A stretch of 52,893 nucleotides of DNA from Actinomycetota bacterium (GTDB lineage Bacteria > Actinomycetota > Actinomycetes > Actinomycetales > Microbacteriaceae). The notes under the pieces were generated by a model, which searched no databases, was not told where the DNA came from, and worked only from the letters and a program-made list of their open reading frames with translations. Shown here one piece after another: positions 8,593 through 36,681 of this stretch; position 1 is the first letter of the stretch, and each line of letters begins with the position of its first letter. Made by a program: the position numbers and the translations under genes. The stretch lies in assembly GCA_947450345.1 (NCBI GenBank), contig CANFVD010000005.1:1-52893 (forward strand), in the 5' to 3' direction.

Positions 8593-9441
8593 TCAGATGT
8601 CGAAAAGCCCGCCAAGTCCCACGGCCCGAGACATGGCGGTGCGGACCTCGTCCTCGCGATCGAGGGCAACGTCGGCAGATCCCGAGACAAAAACGCGAAC
8701 CTGCAACACAGCCTGGCGAACAAGCATGTGAAGTCCACCGACAATGCGGCCACCCGACGCCTGCCACGTGTGTGCCCGCGAGGTGGGCCACGGGGAGTAA
8801 GCAACATCGATGAGGATGCGGTTCTCGGCTCCAGCCTGAGCTAAATCAAGGTCAACCGACCCCGGCAGTGTCATGATGCTCACGTCATTTCGCGAGGACT
8901 CGGCAAAATCGCTGAGATGGTGAACGGCAACGTTGATGCCACACGCATGACCCGCCACGACAGCATTGCTCGCTCGAGTGGTGTCTCGCACAAAAATGTC
9001 CGCGCTTCGAGCTCCGGCACGGGATGCCGCCACGACAGCCGAAACTGCCGTGGCACCGCCGCCCACGATACTGACAGCGTCAGGTGCACCCGTCGCCGAC
9101 TCACGAATCACACTGGCTAAAGCCGGGACATCTGTGTTGAAACCCTGAAGGCGGCGGGAATCGCGATCAAACAGCAGAGTGTTACAGGCGCCCGTGATTG
9201 CCGTCGCTTCATCCACGACATCAGCGAGCTCGGTGGCACGATACTTCAGCGGCATCGTCAGCGACAAACCCACCCATGTGGCGTCCCGCGTTGACACGTA
9301 GCCGTCAAGCTGGTCCTCGGTCAGGTCCTGCCGACCGTAGGCCCAGTCGAGACCGAGCACCCGATAGGCCGCCGCGTGAAGAACCGGCGACAGCGAATGG
9401 TCAAGGGGATGACCCAGGACCGCCAGATTCTTACTGGTCAT
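8593..9441 (-). CDS. aroE: Shikimate dehydrogenase (NADP-dependent type)
   Basis: Reduces 3-dehydroshikimate to shikimate. I start at ATG 9441 (MTSKNLAVLGHP, 282 aa), with GGGAG about 10 nt upstream; the open frame extends further to 9498, inside mltG, without conservation. Shikimate contacts are visible in HSLSPVLHAAAY near residue 14, the catalytic Lys in LTMPLKYRA and the CNTLLF and GFNTDV motifs. The dinucleotide loop is VGGGATAVSAVVAA. Overlaps the mltG stop by 11 nt. With aroC, aroK, aroB and aroQ it gives five of the seven shikimate enzymes in one block; aroA and the DAHP synthase gene are not in the window. Confidence 0.94.
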   Translation of the reverse strand: MTSKNLAVLGHPLDHSLSPVLHAAAYRVLGLDWAYGRQDLTEDQLDGYVSTRDATWVGLSLTMPLKYRATELADVVDEATAITGACNTLLFDRDSRRLQGFNTDVPALASVIRESATGAPDAVSIVGGGATAVSAVVAASRAGARSADIFVRDTTRASNAVVAGHACGINVAVHHLSDFAESSRNDVSIMTLPGSVDLDLAQAGAENRILIDVAYSPWPTSRAHTWQASGGRIVGGLHMLVRQAVLQVRVFVSGSADVALDREDEVRTAMSRAVGLGGLFDI

Positions 9442-31522: not shown

Positions 31523-31585
31523 AGATCTGCTTTCTCTTTACGGGTGGGCTTCTAGCCTATCCGCCCGAGATGAGGCTCCTCGTGG

Positions 31586-31657
31586 TGGGCGATACCGGGA
31601 TCGAACCGATGACCTCTTCCGTGTCAGGGAAGCGCGCTACCGCTGCGCCAATCGCCC
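31586..31657 (-). tRNA. tRNA-Val (anticodon GAC)
   Basis: Minus strand: acceptor GGGCGAT paired with ATCGCCC, anticodon stem CTTCC/GGAAG, loop CTGACAC giving GAC, T-loop GGTTCGATCCC. Discriminator A, and CCA is encoded at 31585-31583. Last of a Gly-Cys-Val cluster. Confidence 0.95.
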
Positions 31658-31723
31658 TTGTCACAGCCAACTTCACCGTGATGTCAGGTCATGCGACGAA
31701 CTCCTGAGGAGTTCCTCGCATGG

Positions 31724-31794
31724 AGGTGGATACCGGATTCGAACCGGTGTATACGGCTTTGCAGGCCGCTGCCTCGCCTCTCGGCCAATCCACC
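31724..31794 (-). tRNA. tRNA-Cys (anticodon GCA)
   Basis: Acceptor GGTGGAT/ATCCACC, anticodon stem GCGGC/GCCGT, loop CTGCAAA giving GCA, T-loop GGTTCGAATCC. Discriminator T with encoded CCA (31723-31721). 66 nt from tRNA-Val. Confidence 0.95.
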
Positions 31795-31844
31795 AGAAGT
31801 GGCACGCCACGACCGGTGAGCCGGTCGAGAAACATACCCACTCG

Positions 31845-31916
31845 AGCGGATGACGAGATTCGAACTCGCGACCCTCACCTTGGCAAGGTGATGCGCTACC
31901 ACTGCGCCACATCCGC
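31845..31916 (-). tRNA. tRNA-Gly (anticodon GCC)
   Basis: Acceptor GCGGATG/CATCCGC, anticodon stem TCACC/GGTGA, loop TTGCCAA giving GCC, T-loop AGTTCGAATCT. Discriminator T; the CCA end is not encoded (CGA follows), unlike its two neighbours. First of the cluster. Confidence 0.95.
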
Positions 31917-31943
31917 ATGTACGACTTGCACCGTACCTATCGA

Positions 31944-31973
31944 ACTTTAGTCTGCCGAGCGCCCGATAGACAA
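31944..31973 (-). promoter_or_regulatory. Promoter of the tRNA Gly-Cys-Val cluster
   Basis: TTGTCT (31973-31968) and TAAAGT (31949-31944), 18-nt spacer, 27 nt before the mature tRNA-Gly. The best -35/-10 pair in the window. It shares the 132-bp divergent region with the promoter of tRNA-Val(CAC), for which TAGTGT at about 32035-32040 is a -10 candidate. Confidence 0.65.
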
Positions 31974-32048
31974 ACTCGACACCCGGGTCGACCAGAAGGA
32001 GGAGCCGTGTGACGTTCGACCTACGGCAATTCGCTAGTGTGGTTGTGC

Positions 32049-32121
32049 GGGCGATTGGCGCAGTTGGTAGCGCGCTTCCTTCACACGGAAGAGGTCATCG
32101 GTTCGAGTCCGGTATCGCCCA
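32049..32121 (+). tRNA. tRNA-Val (anticodon CAC)
   Basis: Acceptor GGGCGAT/ATCGCCC, anticodon stem CTTCC/GGAAG, loop TTCACAC giving CAC, T-loop GGTTCGAGTCC. Discriminator A, CCA encoded at 32122-32124. Nearly identical in sequence to tRNA-Val(GAC) on the other strand, so a duplication is likely. Confidence 0.95.
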
Positions 32122-32136
32122 CCAACCCGAAAGTCT

Positions 32137-32152
32137 GGCTACTTTAGTAGCC
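32137..32152. terminator. Perfect inverted repeat between tRNA-Val(CAC) and amt (convergent)
   Basis: GGCTAC-TTTA-GTAGCC, 6-bp stem with a 4-nt loop, straddling the stop codon of the first amt gene and 13 nt past the tRNA 3' end. Could stop transcription from both sides, but no T-run follows either arm. Confidence 0.4.
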
Positions 32153-33403
32153 GTCGATGGCGTATCCCTCTTCGCCGTGCATCACCGTATCGATGCCGGC
32201 GAGCTCGTCTTCGTTGCGCACGCGGAAGCCCATCGTCTTGTCGATGACGGTTCCGATGATCCACGTCATGCCGAAGCTGAACACCATGACCACGAGCGAG
32301 GCGAGCGCCTGACTCCCCAGCTGCGTGAATGATCCGCTGAAGATGAGACCCACTTCGGTGCCCACGATTCCAATCGCAAGAGTTCCCACGAGTCCACCCA
32401 CGAGGTGGATGCCGACGACGTCGAGAGAGTCGTCAAAGCCCCAGCGGAATTTCAGCTCGACGGCGAGGGCACACAACACTCCCGCGATGAGTCCGACGAC
32501 GATGGCCCACAGCGGAGTAAGCGAGGCGCACGACGGGGTGATGGCGACCGCGCCAGCGATGGCACCCGACGCCGCGCCGACCGACGTAGCCTTGCCGTCC
32601 TTGATTCTCTCGACGATCAGCCAGCCAATAATTCCCGCCGCGGGAGCGGCAATCGTATTAATGAGAGCCAACGCGGCCACGCCGTCCGCCGCCAACTCGG
32701 ATCCAGCGTTGAATCCCAGCCAACCAAACCAGAGCAGACCCGCACCCAACAAGACCAACGGTACGTTGTGAGGCTTGTGAACACCCTTGGCAAAGCCCAC
32801 CCGCGTGCCGAGAACAATGGCTAACGCGAGCGCCGCGGAACCCGAAGCAATCTCAACCACGGTTCCACCGGCAAAGTCAATCAAGCCGAATTTGTCGACC
32901 AGCCAACCCCCGCCGACAATCTCTCCGCTGTCGTCGCGAACGATATTGAAGACCCAGCTCGCCACCGGAAAGTAAACGAGCGTGGCCCAGAATCCCGCAA
33001 ATACGAGCCAGGCGCCGAATCGTGCTCGGTCAGCTACGGCGCCCGAGATGAGGGCCACAGTGATAATCGCGAAGGTACCCTGGAATGCGGCAAAGGCGAG
33101 TGGCGGAATGCCACCCATGGGAGGTGCATCAAGGAGTGCCTCGAGACCAATGTCGCCAAGGTTGATGCCAATGAAGCCGGGAATGCCCACATATCCCGGG
33201 TCACCCGGATTTGCGAACGAAATCGCGTAACCGTAAACAACCCAGAGCAGAGAGATCAGCGCCAACGAACCGAAGCTCAGCATCATCATGCTCACGACAC
33301 TCTTGGCCTGGACGAGGCCGCCATAGAAGAAGGCGAGTGCGGGCGTCATCATGAGCACGAGCGCCGCGCAAATCAGAACAAAAGCGGTGTTCCCAGAATC
33401 CAT
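32144..33403 (-). CDS. amt: Ammonium transporter, Glu-His pore variant
   Basis: 419 aa, eleven predicted helices, Amt/MEP/Rh family. Shared family text includes TPALAFFYGGLVQAKS, FAAFQGTFAIITVAL and LLWFGWLGFNAGSELA. At the first pore histidine of the twin-His pair it has Glu184 in DFAGGTVVEIASG (codon GAG, 32854-32852); the second His is kept as His333 in VGIHLVGG. Such a Glu occurs in yeast Mep1/Mep3-type transporters, so the gene may be active with changed ion handling. Convergent with tRNA-Val(CAC), divergent from the ATP-grasp gene by 34 bp. AGGG precedes the ATG by 7 nt. No glnK is nearby. Confidence 0.93.
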   Translation of the reverse strand: MDSGNTAFVLICAALVLMMTPALAFFYGGLVQAKSVVSMMMLSFGSLALISLLWVVYGYAISFANPGDPGYVGIPGFIGINLGDIGLEALLDAPPMGGIPPLAFAAFQGTFAIITVALISGAVADRARFGAWLVFAGFWATLVYFPVASWVFNIVRDDSGEIVGGGWLVDKFGLIDFAGGTVVEIASGSAALALAIVLGTRVGFAKGVHKPHNVPLVLLGAGLLWFGWLGFNAGSELAADGVAALALINTIAAPAAGIIGWLIVERIKDGKATSVGAASGAIAGAVAITPSCASLTPLWAIVVGLIAGVLCALAVELKFRWGFDDSLDVVGIHLVGGLVGTLAIGIVGTEVGLIFSGSFTQLGSQALASLVVMVFSFGMTWIIGTVIDKTMGFRVRNEDELAGIDTVMHGEEGYAIDGY

Positions 33404-33437: not shown

Positions 33438-34451
33438 GTGATGGGAAAGCTTCGGCTGCGCGCGAGCTACCTGTTCGACCGGGCGAAGTCAATTAACCTT
33501 CCGCGGCTCTGGAAGTCCGCCCGCTCTATCGCCCGCATTGCCCACCGGCCTTCTCTCGTCGTGCTGATCGACATGCTCCAGTGTTCTGTGCGCTACGAGT
33601 GCGGGTTTCAGGACTTTCAGGATTGGGATTTCGCGTTGTTGAGCGCGGCCGAACGTCGCACCTTCATGACCCACCCGAAGTCAGACCACATCGCGCGCCG
33701 ATACAACATCGGGCAGGACCGTTACGACCTCCGTGACAAGTCTCGATTCAATCGGCGATTCGAGGCCTATGTTCGGCGTGACTGGATTGATATCCGGGAA
33801 TCGTCGGACAAGGACCTCGCGACGTTCCTTGTGCGGCATCCGCTTGTCATGGCCAAGGTCCCCGACAGCGAGGGTGGCGCGGGAATCGAAAAGATTGTTC
33901 GCGACGGGAATGAGTCCGCCGGCGAGCTGCGCGACAGGCTCTCGTCGAGCCGCCAGTTCCTGCTCGAAGAGTTCGTTGTGCAGCACCCTGACATGGCCTT
34001 GTTGAACGCGACGAGTGTCAACACGCTTCGGATCGTCACGTTCGTTCGGGACGGAGTCGTGCATGTTCTGGCGCGGGTCCTCAAAATGGGCGCGGGTGGG
34101 GACATCGATAACTTCAGTGCCGGGGGCATGTACACGATGCTCGATCCCGACGGTGTCGCGCTCTATGCCGCCTTTGACCGTCACGACGCGATGCATACCG
34201 TGCACCCACTCTCCGGAACCTCGATCGTCGGCTTTCGCGTGCCGAGATTCAGCGAGGTCATCGAACTCGTGTCGAAAGCCGCCTTGGAACTCACCGACGT
34301 TCCGTATGTCGGCTGGGACGTTGCGATTGCCCCAAACGGGCCACTCATCATCGAAGCGAACTACAACACGGGCGTTTTCCAAGCCAAGCCACGGGCATCC
34401 GGGACGCCCCAGGGCCTTCTCCCCGTTTACGCAGCGGTCGCGGAGTTCTGA
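33438..34451 (+). CDS. Sugar-transfer-associated ATP-grasp ligase
   Basis: 337 aa from GTG 33438 (GTG ATG, so the ATG at 33441 is an alternative). No signal peptide. The ATP-grasp fold is visible as LLEEFVVQHPDMALLNATSV, TLRIVTFVRDGVVHVLARVLK, GDIDNFSAGGMYTMLDPDGV and the Mg-binding VGWDVAIAPNGPLIIEANYN. The closest named family I recognise is the alpha-L-glutamate-ligase-like/sugar-transfer ATP-grasp group, often found in cell-surface polysaccharide loci. No glycosyltransferase is nearby; instead it is followed by a CofE-like gene and flanked by two amt genes. The substrate is unknown; an amino acid or amine ligated to a carboxylate is the family's chemistry. Confidence 0.75.
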   Translation: MMGKLRLRASYLFDRAKSINLPRLWKSARSIARIAHRPSLVVLIDMLQCSVRYECGFQDFQDWDFALLSAAERRTFMTHPKSDHIARRYNIGQDRYDLRDKSRFNRRFEAYVRRDWIDIRESSDKDLATFLVRHPLVMAKVPDSEGGAGIEKIVRDGNESAGELRDRLSSSRQFLLEEFVVQHPDMALLNATSVNTLRIVTFVRDGVVHVLARVLKMGAGGDIDNFSAGGMYTMLDPDGVALYAAFDRHDAMHTVHPLSGTSIVGFRVPRFSEVIELVSKAALELTDVPYVGWDVAIAPNGPLIIEANYNTGVFQAKPRASGTPQGLLPVYAAVAEF

Positions 34452-34610
34452 CCTTCGACCCGCCGTGCGCCCGGCCTGTCCGTAGGGTCGGAATGTTAGG
34501 CTTGGGCTCGCGATGGTGCGCTCAGGGGCCTACCGCGCGCCTCGTCTGCCGACCCGCATCACACAGTCTCTCCCTCATGTGCCGGTGCCCCACTGAACTA
34601 AAGGAACTCC

Positions 34611-35315
34611 ATGGTTGCCGTTCCCAATAAGGGAAAGAACCTCTCCATCACGGTCGAGGGCGTCACCTACGACCGCATACCGATCGCAACGCACACGGTC
34701 TCCCCGCAAGACTCTCTGACCGACGTCATCGTGAAATACGCACCGGCACACGTACTCCCCGGTGACATCCTGTTCATTACCGAGAAGATCGTGTCGATCT
34801 GTCAGGGCCGTTCCATTGACCCCAACGACATCAGCCCCCGGCGCCTCGCGCATTTCCTGTCTCGGTATGTCCAGAAAACGCCGCACGGAATCGGACTCGG
34901 CATGCCCGAGACCATGGAGATGGCCCTTCGCGAAGTGGGCACGCCCCGCATTCTCGTCGCCGCCGCTGTTGCGGCTGTCACCAAAGCGTTTGGTCGCAAG
35001 GGCGACTTTTACCGCATTGCCGGACAGGGCGCTCGCGCCATCGACGGTCCCACAGACGGCACTCTGCCGCCCTACAACGAACGCATCGTTTTGGGTCCGC
35101 TCAATCCCAACGCCGTGGCCGCGTCCGTTAAGGACGCGCTCGAACCAACAGTTGAGGTGCTCGTCGTGGACATCAACGATCTCGGTGGAAACATCCTCGG
35201 TACGACCATGCCTGTTCGCGAAAATCAGCGCTGGGTGAGAGTCCTCGCCGACAATCCGCTCGGTCAGGGAGAACAATCGACCCCCCTGGGAATTATTCGC
35301 CGCGTGGGTTCCTAA
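34611..35315 (+). CDS. CofE-like F420-0:gamma-glutamyl ligase homologue
   Basis: 234 aa, ATG 34611 with AAAGGA 5 nt upstream. The CofE family pattern is seen in VLPGDILFITEKIVSICQGR near residue 50, VEVLVVDINDLGGNILG near residue 185 and DNPLGQGEQSTPLGIIRRV at the end. CofE adds glutamates to coenzyme F420 with GTP. No other F420 gene (cofC, cofD, fbiC) is in the window, and the DTNGR-type metal motif of true CofE is altered, so the substrate is probably different. The 159-nt leader contains a TAGGCT -10 candidate at about 34498-34503. Same strand as the ATP-grasp gene and likely a partner. Confidence 0.7.
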   Translation: MVAVPNKGKNLSITVEGVTYDRIPIATHTVSPQDSLTDVIVKYAPAHVLPGDILFITEKIVSICQGRSIDPNDISPRRLAHFLSRYVQKTPHGIGLGMPETMEMALREVGTPRILVAAAVAAVTKAFGRKGDFYRIAGQGARAIDGPTDGTLPPYNERIVLGPLNPNAVAASVKDALEPTVEVLVVDINDLGGNILGTTMPVRENQRWVRVLADNPLGQGEQSTPLGIIRRVGS

Positions 35316-35427: not shown

Positions 35428-36681
35428 TTACTCGGCCAGCGCGTAACCCTCTTCACCGTGCAGCACGGTGTCGATCCCAGCGAGTTCATCCTCGTTCTTG
35501 ATGCGGAAGCCCATGGTCTTCTCCACGATCCAGCCAATGACGAGGCTGAGCACGAAGGAGAACACAATCACGACACCGGCACCGAGGGCCTGCTTACCCA
35601 GCTGCTCGAAGCTGCCGGAGAAGATGAGACCAACACCACTGGCGAAGAATCCGATGAAGAGCGTTCCGATGATTCCGCCGAGGAGGTGGATGCCCACCAC
35701 GTCGAGCGAGTCATCAAAGCCCCACTTGAACTTGAGTTCGATGGCGAGTGCACAGAGCACACCGGCAACGAGTCCCAGCACGATGGCCCACAGCGGGGTC
35801 AACGCGGCACACGCGGGGGTGATGGCCACGAGGCCGGCGACGGCACCCGACGCGGCGCCCACCGAAGTGGCCTTACCGTCCTTGATGCGCTCGACGAGGA
35901 GCCAACCGATTACCGCGGCAGCGGGCGCGGCCATGGTGTTGATGAACGCCTGTGATGCGATACCGTCGGCGGCAAGTTCAGATCCGGCGTTGAAGCCAAA
36001 CCAACCGAACCACAGCAGACCGGCACCCAGCAGAACCAAGGGCACGTTGTGCGGCTTGCTGATTCCCTTAGCGAAGCCGATGCGCTTACCCAGAACAATG
36101 GCCAGCGCCAGACCTGCCGAACCCGCCGCAATGTGCACGGCGGTTCCACCGGCGAAGTCAATCACACCAATGTTGTAGACCAACCAACCGCCATCGACGA
36201 TCTTGCCGTCGACAACAGTGAAGTTGAAGACCCAGTTAGCGACCGGGAAGTACACGATGGTCGCCCAGATTCCGGCAAAAACCATCCAGGCACCAAAGCG
36301 CGCACGGTCAGCGATAGCTCCCGAGATGAGGGCCACCGTAATAATGGCGAATCCACCCTGGAACGCTGCAAAGGCAAGCGGCGGATAGGTGGCGCCGTCG
36401 GGAACGGTCAGCAGACCCTCGAGTCCGATGTTGGCGGTGTCGATACCAAACACACCGTCGATGCCGTAGAACGTGTCGGTTCCGCCGTTGGAGAACGCAA
36501 TCGCGTATCCGTACAGAACCCACAGAACACCGATTAGTGCGAGTGAGCCAAAGCTCAGCATCATCATGCTGACCACACTCTTGGTCTTCACAAGTCCGCC
36601 GTAGAAGAACGCCAGAGCCGGCGTCATCAGCAAGACCAACGCGGCACTAATCAGGATAAAAGCGGTTTGCCCCTGATCCAT
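35428..36681 (-). CDS. amt: Ammonium transporter, canonical twin-His type
   Basis: 417 aa; very similar to the first amt throughout (shared blocks such as NVPLVLLGAGLLWFGW and ERIKDGKATSVGAASGA). It keeps both pore histidines, His183 in DFAGGTAVHIAAG (codon CAC) and His332 in VGIHLLGG. C-terminal NEDELAGIDTVLHGEEGYALAE matches the other copy closely, so the duplication is recent or selected. SD GAGG lies 5 nt before ATG 36681. A GlnR-type box is upstream (separate entry), so nitrogen limitation should induce it. Convergent with the CofE-like gene. Confidence 0.96.
   Translation of the reverse strand: MDQGQTAFILISAALVLLMTPALAFFYGGLVKTKSVVSMMMLSFGSLALIGVLWVLYGYAIAFSNGGTDTFYGIDGVFGIDTANIGLEGLLTVPDGATYPPLAFAAFQGGFAIITVALISGAIADRARFGAWMVFAGIWATIVYFPVANWVFNFTVVDGKIVDGGWLVYNIGVIDFAGGTAVHIAAGSAGLALAIVLGKRIGFAKGISKPHNVPLVLLGAGLLWFGWFGFNAGSELAADGIASQAFINTMAAPAAAVIGWLLVERIKDGKATSVGAASGAVAGLVAITPACAALTPLWAIVLGLVAGVLCALAIELKFKWGFDDSLDVVGIHLLGGIIGTLFIGFFASGVGLIFSGSFEQLGKQALGAGVVIVFSFVLSLVIGWIVEKTMGFRIKNEDELAGIDTVLHGEEGYALAE

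Follow-up and report, generated by a model that had tools for sequence, protein, structure and literature searches.

The window, the whole 52,893-nt stretch of DNA that was analysed, is contig C5 of a Microbacteriaceae MAG (G000; 1.68 Mb, 82.6% complete). It contains an ATP-grasp ligase gene and a CofE-like ligase gene which probably form a displaced peptidoglycan cross-bridge module, in which the CofE-like ligase substitutes for MurT in group B bridge synthesis (we put the probability at about two in three). The case for a cell-wall module is strong, and group B bridge synthesis specifically is the best inference. The CofE-like ligase would act at the D-Glu alpha-carboxyl of peptidoglycan precursors in place of MurT and would attach the first cross-bridge amino acid. 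The ATP-grasp would add the next one, which would be a diamino acid (D-Orn, L-Lys or DAB, for instance). The joint product of the two ligases would be the 2-to-4 bridge by which group B peptidoglycan is defined. The ligase folds, the linkage of the genes, their cell-wall setting in relatives, the empty slot in this genome, the exclusion of MurT in two phyla and the lack of CofD are observations; we infer the substrate, the order of the two steps, the nucleotide used and the amino acids joined.

Group B peptidoglycan, with its cross-bridge attached to the D-Glu alpha-carboxyl, is the wall type generally given for the Microbacteriaceae and for Erysipelothrix, and it has been used for actinobacterial classification for half a century. 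No paper assigning genes to the D-Glu-linked group B bridge was found in the open-licence literature (subscription journals were not covered). If the proposed function is correct, it would name candidate genes for a cross-link that has long been unassigned, provide a second fold for modification of the D-Glu alpha-carboxyl and allow peptidoglycan type to be predicted from genomes; variation in the diamino acid may also be explained by gene content. The diagnostic diamino acids of Microbacterium are D-Orn, L-Lys or DAB, and its sister genus Paramicrobacterium is of type B2 (PMC10757982). The Leucobacter cell wall contains diaminobutyrate, DAB (PMC4148977), and other Microbacteriaceae genera are of type B2-gamma or B2-beta (PMC5945732). 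Racemase genes follow the diamino-acid type (D-Orn/L-Lys) imperfectly; M. enclense, which is reported to have L-Lys, carries racemase genes.

The ATP-grasp gene (PF14397; 33438-34451, plus strand) has a GTG start and encodes 337 aa, and the CofE-like gene (PF01996; 34611-35315, plus strand) has an ATG start and encodes 234 aa. The sequence-only reading had placed two plus-strand genes 159 nt apart, and the open reading frames agree with this. Outside the module, the pair is flanked by two amt ammonium transporter genes at 32144-33403 (TIGR00836, 407 bits) and 35428-36681 (413 bits), both above the cut-off of 343. These had been described as inverted copies, which is incorrect; both are read from the minus strand, so they share one orientation and only the ligase pair runs the other way. 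The first amt diverges from the ATP-grasp gene, with start codons approximately 34 nt apart, and the CofE-like gene converges with the second amt. The complete amt-ATPgrasp-CofE-amt block is also present in G005 (locus L020), another genome from this genus, where both ligase proteins are 95% identical to those of the window. An assembly chimera or artefact, or phylogenetic noise, was ruled out because the block is repeated in G005 and the pair is repeated in rpoD-parE loci. Four tRNA genes lie at 31583-32124 between thrS and the first amt (Val-GAC, Cys and Gly on the minus strand and Val-CAC on the plus strand).

A scan of 84,980 genomes found 495 relatives of the CofE-like protein. In the best 80 of these 495 loci, an ATP-grasp of the PF14397 family is near the CofE-like gene in 71. 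Four of the other nine stop at a contig edge right after the gene, and one is from Erysipelothrix, which has its ATP-grasps elsewhere. Among 150 Microbacteriaceae genomes (136 are near-complete, and the statistics rest mostly on these), the ATP-grasp (E<1e-100) is found in 20 of the 22 genomes with a close CofE-like gene (E<1e-80) and in 7 of the 128 others (p=5e-17; Fisher p-values here and below are uncorrected for relatedness). MurT is present in six of the seven genomes that have the ATP-grasp without a close CofE-like gene. The adjacency of the two genes is far beyond chance. The two protein families do form a linked ligase pair, as first noted in the window.

In relatives (Microbacterium, Leucobacter and Gulosibacter) the pair occupies the interval from rpoD to parE, and its orientation varies. 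Its neighbours there are two alanine-racemase-family genes, a MurJ flippase (TIGR01695, 223 bits, slightly under the 236-bit cut-off) or a diaminobutyrate transaminase, which is above its cut-off and is carried by the Leucobacter loci. The sequence-only reading had noted no envelope genes nearby; this is true of the window, but the usual rpoD-parE locus is rich in cell-wall genes. In the window genome this rpoD-parE slot is empty, with about 66 nt between the end of rpoD at 1340 and the next conserved gene, which matches from 1406 (L121). Therefore, the pair appears to have reached its place between the amt genes by relocation or by re-acquisition. Among all annotated loci, those of G000 and G005 are the only two with amt next to the pair. 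Since the pair is elsewhere found at rpoD-parE, the amt neighbours are incidental, and the position of the pair beside them is an accident of one genus. Co-occurrence beside amt in other genomes had been suggested as a check, and the pair does co-occur, with the amt flank limited to these two genomes; the idea that supply is tied to ammonium uptake is unsupported for the same reason. An ammonium-linked function was rejected as a general explanation because the amt linkage is unconserved. The earlier description of a ligation pair was right in kind, and its function most likely concerns peptidoglycan.

Two further loci bear on the setting of these genes. A contig in a record titled Stenotrophomonas maltophilia P13 (L047) has a Microbacterium-type rpoD, CofE-like gene, ATP-grasp gene and parE, and is probably contamination of the public assembly. 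In genome G165 (L103:6263-8596), a distant CofE-like gene is directly upstream of a MurJ-family flippase gene in the recN-pyrG interval, which is a second, independent cell-wall setting for a CofE-like gene.

The loci without a CofE-like gene usually have a MurT-like Mur ligase gene in the same slot, directly after rpoD, and one of these ligases matches S. aureus MurT at E=3e-40. In the 150 Microbacteriaceae genomes, the MurT_C domain is present in 0 of the 22 close CofE-like carriers and in 102 of the 128 others (p=2e-13). When three distant CofE-like genes are counted, the numbers become 3 of 25 and 99 of 125 (p=2e-10). Neither the CofE-like gene nor MurT is found in 26 of the 150. Swaps between the two occur inside at least six genera (g1, which is the window's, g7, g9, g72, g73 and g91). 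In g1, for instance, G000 and G005 have the CofE-like gene, and G001 has MurT, a GatD-like gene and racemases at rpoD. Since swaps are found within genera, it is unlikely that the exclusivity is a result of simple lineage confounding. The absence of MurT from G000 is weak evidence taken alone, given that this MAG is only partly complete. The three exceptions all involve distant CofE-like genes. Two are in genus g68, the main exception. In G072 (L101) the distant gene and MurT occur in the same genome; in G141 (L102:7816-10596) a single operon that follows rpoD contains the distant gene together with MurT and a GatD-like gene that lacks the cysteine. The third is G165, which also has MurT. The exclusion is repeated in a second phylum. 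In the Erysipelotrichaceae (Bacillota), MurT_C is present in 0 of 13 CofE-like carriers and in 63 of 82 others (p=1e-7). Apart from the three distant exceptions, the CofE-like gene shares the slot of MurT and excludes it, as would a functional substitute.

The MurT gene in the slot is often accompanied by a GatD-like gene. The catalytic cysteine has been lost in all seven of the rpoD-slot GatD-like proteins read (L018 at 8595-9341, L100, L102, L105, L107, L109 and L112), and an off-locus GatD in G018 retains it. The S. aureus MurT/GatD complex amidates the D-Glu alpha-carboxyl, and when glutamine is the donor this reaction requires GatD C94 (PMC3266927). A C94G mutation abolishes glutamine-dependent amidation; with MurT, free ammonia is still used in vitro (PMC3266927). 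Therefore, the rpoD-slot MurT/GatD proteins are unlikely to be ordinary amidating complexes, although the use of free ammonia by the C94G protein means that a lost cysteine does not exclude amidation. The sequences suggest that the cysteine-less GatD-like protein is a repurposed, non-glutaminase subunit in the Microbacteriaceae. The MurT_C scores of the Erysipelotrichaceae fall into two groups with a gap between them, one canonical (E<1e-28, 41 genomes) and one divergent (E>1e-25, 22 genomes). With the cut set post hoc at this gap, the ATP-grasp is found with divergent MurT in 14 of 22 genomes and with canonical MurT in 0 of 41 (p=9e-9). It is found with the CofE-like gene in six Erysipelotrichaceae genomes. 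Most simply, amidation would be the task of canonical MurT/GatD, and an amino acid would be attached by divergent MurT or by the CofE-like ligase and then extended by the ATP-grasp.

The MurT exclusivity would fit any enzyme acting on the same carboxyl, and MurT with an inactive GatD can use ammonia. The CofE-like ligase could thus amidate the D-Glu alpha-carboxyl with free ammonia to give D-isoglutamine, replacing MurT/GatD, with the ATP-grasp adding an unrelated cross-bridge residue. This is unlikely. The position of the window genes between amt genes would agree with a use of ammonia; however, the amt linkage is limited to two genomes of one genus. Seven Erysipelotrichaceae with the CofE-like gene have no strong ATP-grasp match, a point in favour of amidation. 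Canonical, amidating MurT is never found with this ATP-grasp in that family. In addition, the alpha-carboxyl in group B peptidoglycan, the type of the Microbacteriaceae, holds the bridge and is unavailable for amidation; B2 types are documented in PMC5945732 and PMC10757982.

The proposed cross-bridge ligase resembles MurT/GatD, the lipid II isoglutaminyl synthase of S. aureus, in its putative target, the D-Glu alpha-carboxyl of the stem peptide, and its gene takes the gene slot of the MurT-like genes of relatives and excludes MurT. Unlike MurT, it has a CofE fold in place of a Mur ligase fold, lacks a glutaminase partner and would attach an amino acid instead of ammonia. A wider account, for which we consider the chances to be even, is that a CofE-fold ligase starts the group B bridge on D-Glu, has displaced MurT several times and has moved between Actinomycetota and Bacillota, and that MurT with a dead-glutaminase GatD does the same job in related genera. 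If true, the synthesis of group B walls would involve two or more unrelated ligase folds and one ATP-grasp family.

The ATP-grasp protein matches ATPgrasp_ST (PF14397) with E=1.1e-41 and 143.4 bits, above the cut-off of 31.4. Its AlphaFold2 model has a pLDDT of 90.3, and the closest structures are LysX/ArgX, RimK, D-Ala-D-Ala ligases and BacD, which are all carboxylate-amine ligases. Residues K140, D294, E306 and N308 are invariant in 26 relatives and, by analogy with other ATP-grasp enzymes, are candidate ATP/metal-binding residues. RimK and LysX are the closest solved structures, and there is a weak match to TIGR02291 (RimK-related). The window protein differs from these in having only approximately 16% identity, an extra N-terminal helical region and another genomic setting. 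A functional precedent is the D-aspartate ligase AslA/Aslfm of Lactococcus and Enterococcus, an ATP-grasp by which peptidoglycan precursors receive a cross-bridge amino acid, and which is accompanied by a racemase that supplies the D-amino acid (PMC4155827). AslA targets L-Lys at position 3 (group A), whereas the proposed target of the window pair is on D-Glu at position 2.

The PF14397 family is named for an association with sugar transfer, and a related NCBIfam model is titled 'putative folate metabolism gamma-glutamate ligase'. Together with the many Erysipelotrichaceae CofE-like genes that are beside non-wall genes, these names would fit a pair that acts on another envelope polymer (capsule or a teichoic-type glycopeptide) or on a small metabolite such as a folate-like cofactor, in which case the MurT exclusivity would reflect lineage-wide wall differences only. 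Such a role seems improbable, since the same-slot swaps inside several genera oppose lineage confounding and the neighbours of the pair are racemases, MurJ and a DAB transaminase, with no polymer gene cluster. The neighbourhood expected for sugar transfer, a glycosyltransferase cluster, was found neither in the window stretch nor in the annotated rpoD-parE loci.

The CofE-like protein matches PF01996 (F420_ligase) with E=1.2e-11 and 45 bits, above the cut-off of 25. The two Pfam matches agree with the motifs recognised earlier, of a sugar-transfer ATP-grasp and an F420 ligase-like protein. No homology to MurT_C or a Mur ligase was found for the CofE-like protein, for which F420_ligase is the sole Pfam match and the fold is that of CofE. 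For its AlphaFold2 model (pLDDT 85.7), the sole structural matches were those to CofE of Archaeoglobus fulgidus (Foldseek E=3e-10; 2phn with Z 15.7 over 184 residues at 18% identity); an unrelated fold followed at Z 4.0. The motif D187-I-N189-D190 is aligned with D-T-N-G of CofE. In an alignment of 27 sequences, D145, D187, N189 and D190 belong to the best-conserved positions, and by analogy with CofE they may bind metal.

The protein resembles the F420-0:gamma-glutamyl ligase CofE/FbiB in fold and probably in carboxylate-amine ligase chemistry. Unlike CofE, it is linked to cell-wall genes, and it is far under the cut-offs of the CofE equivalog models (28.6 against 180.65 bits for TIGR01916 and 22.6 against 274 for NF009809). 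CofD (PF01933) was not found in G000, G005 or the 99-100% complete carriers G006 and G024. Therefore, the pair does not serve F420 synthesis, in agreement with the earlier remark that no F420 genes lie around the pair, and this role was rejected on the absence of CofD from the four carriers checked and the poor equivalog scores. The CofE fold, the PF01996 membership and the local position adjoining amt would fit a true F420-biosynthetic CofE or a glutamylation system tied to ammonium, but either reading is very improbable and largely refuted by the missing CofD, the low TIGR01916 score and the unconserved amt linkage. If the CofE-like ligase instead starts the group B bridge, hundreds of CofE-like proteins (495 in the scan), of which the carriers checked are without CofD, would gain a likely function.

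The Erysipelotrichaceae also have CofE-like genes. The Erysipelothrix protein (L066) is 61% identical to that of the window, and its gene is genuine and not contamination, since it has 35% GC and native neighbours. Two Erysipelothrix ATP-grasp genes are near a glutamate racemase gene. In the CofE tree, Erysipelothrix, G250 and G176 group with the Microbacteriaceae with support of 86/97. Erysipelothrix is represented two times in this tree, one of them with a Microbacteriaceae-style label, and counts of group changes were disregarded. This grouping fits a transfer of the CofE-like gene between group B bacteria and is not proof of it. A strong ATP-grasp match is absent in 7 of the 13 CofE-like Erysipelotrichaceae, and most of the CofE-like genes in these seven have no cell-wall neighbours. 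Therefore, the wider CofE-like family may include other activities. In four Erysipelotrichaceae loci (L135, L136, L139 and L140), the CofE-like gene is followed by a gene for a conserved protein of about 500 aa that starts with MHKIGFDNEKYI or similar, near nth. In G035, from another family of the order, a CofE-like domain is fused behind an asparagine-synthase/glutamine-amidotransferase-like domain (L017:8862-11468, minus strand), and the fused gene adjoins dapA and an RNase J gene.
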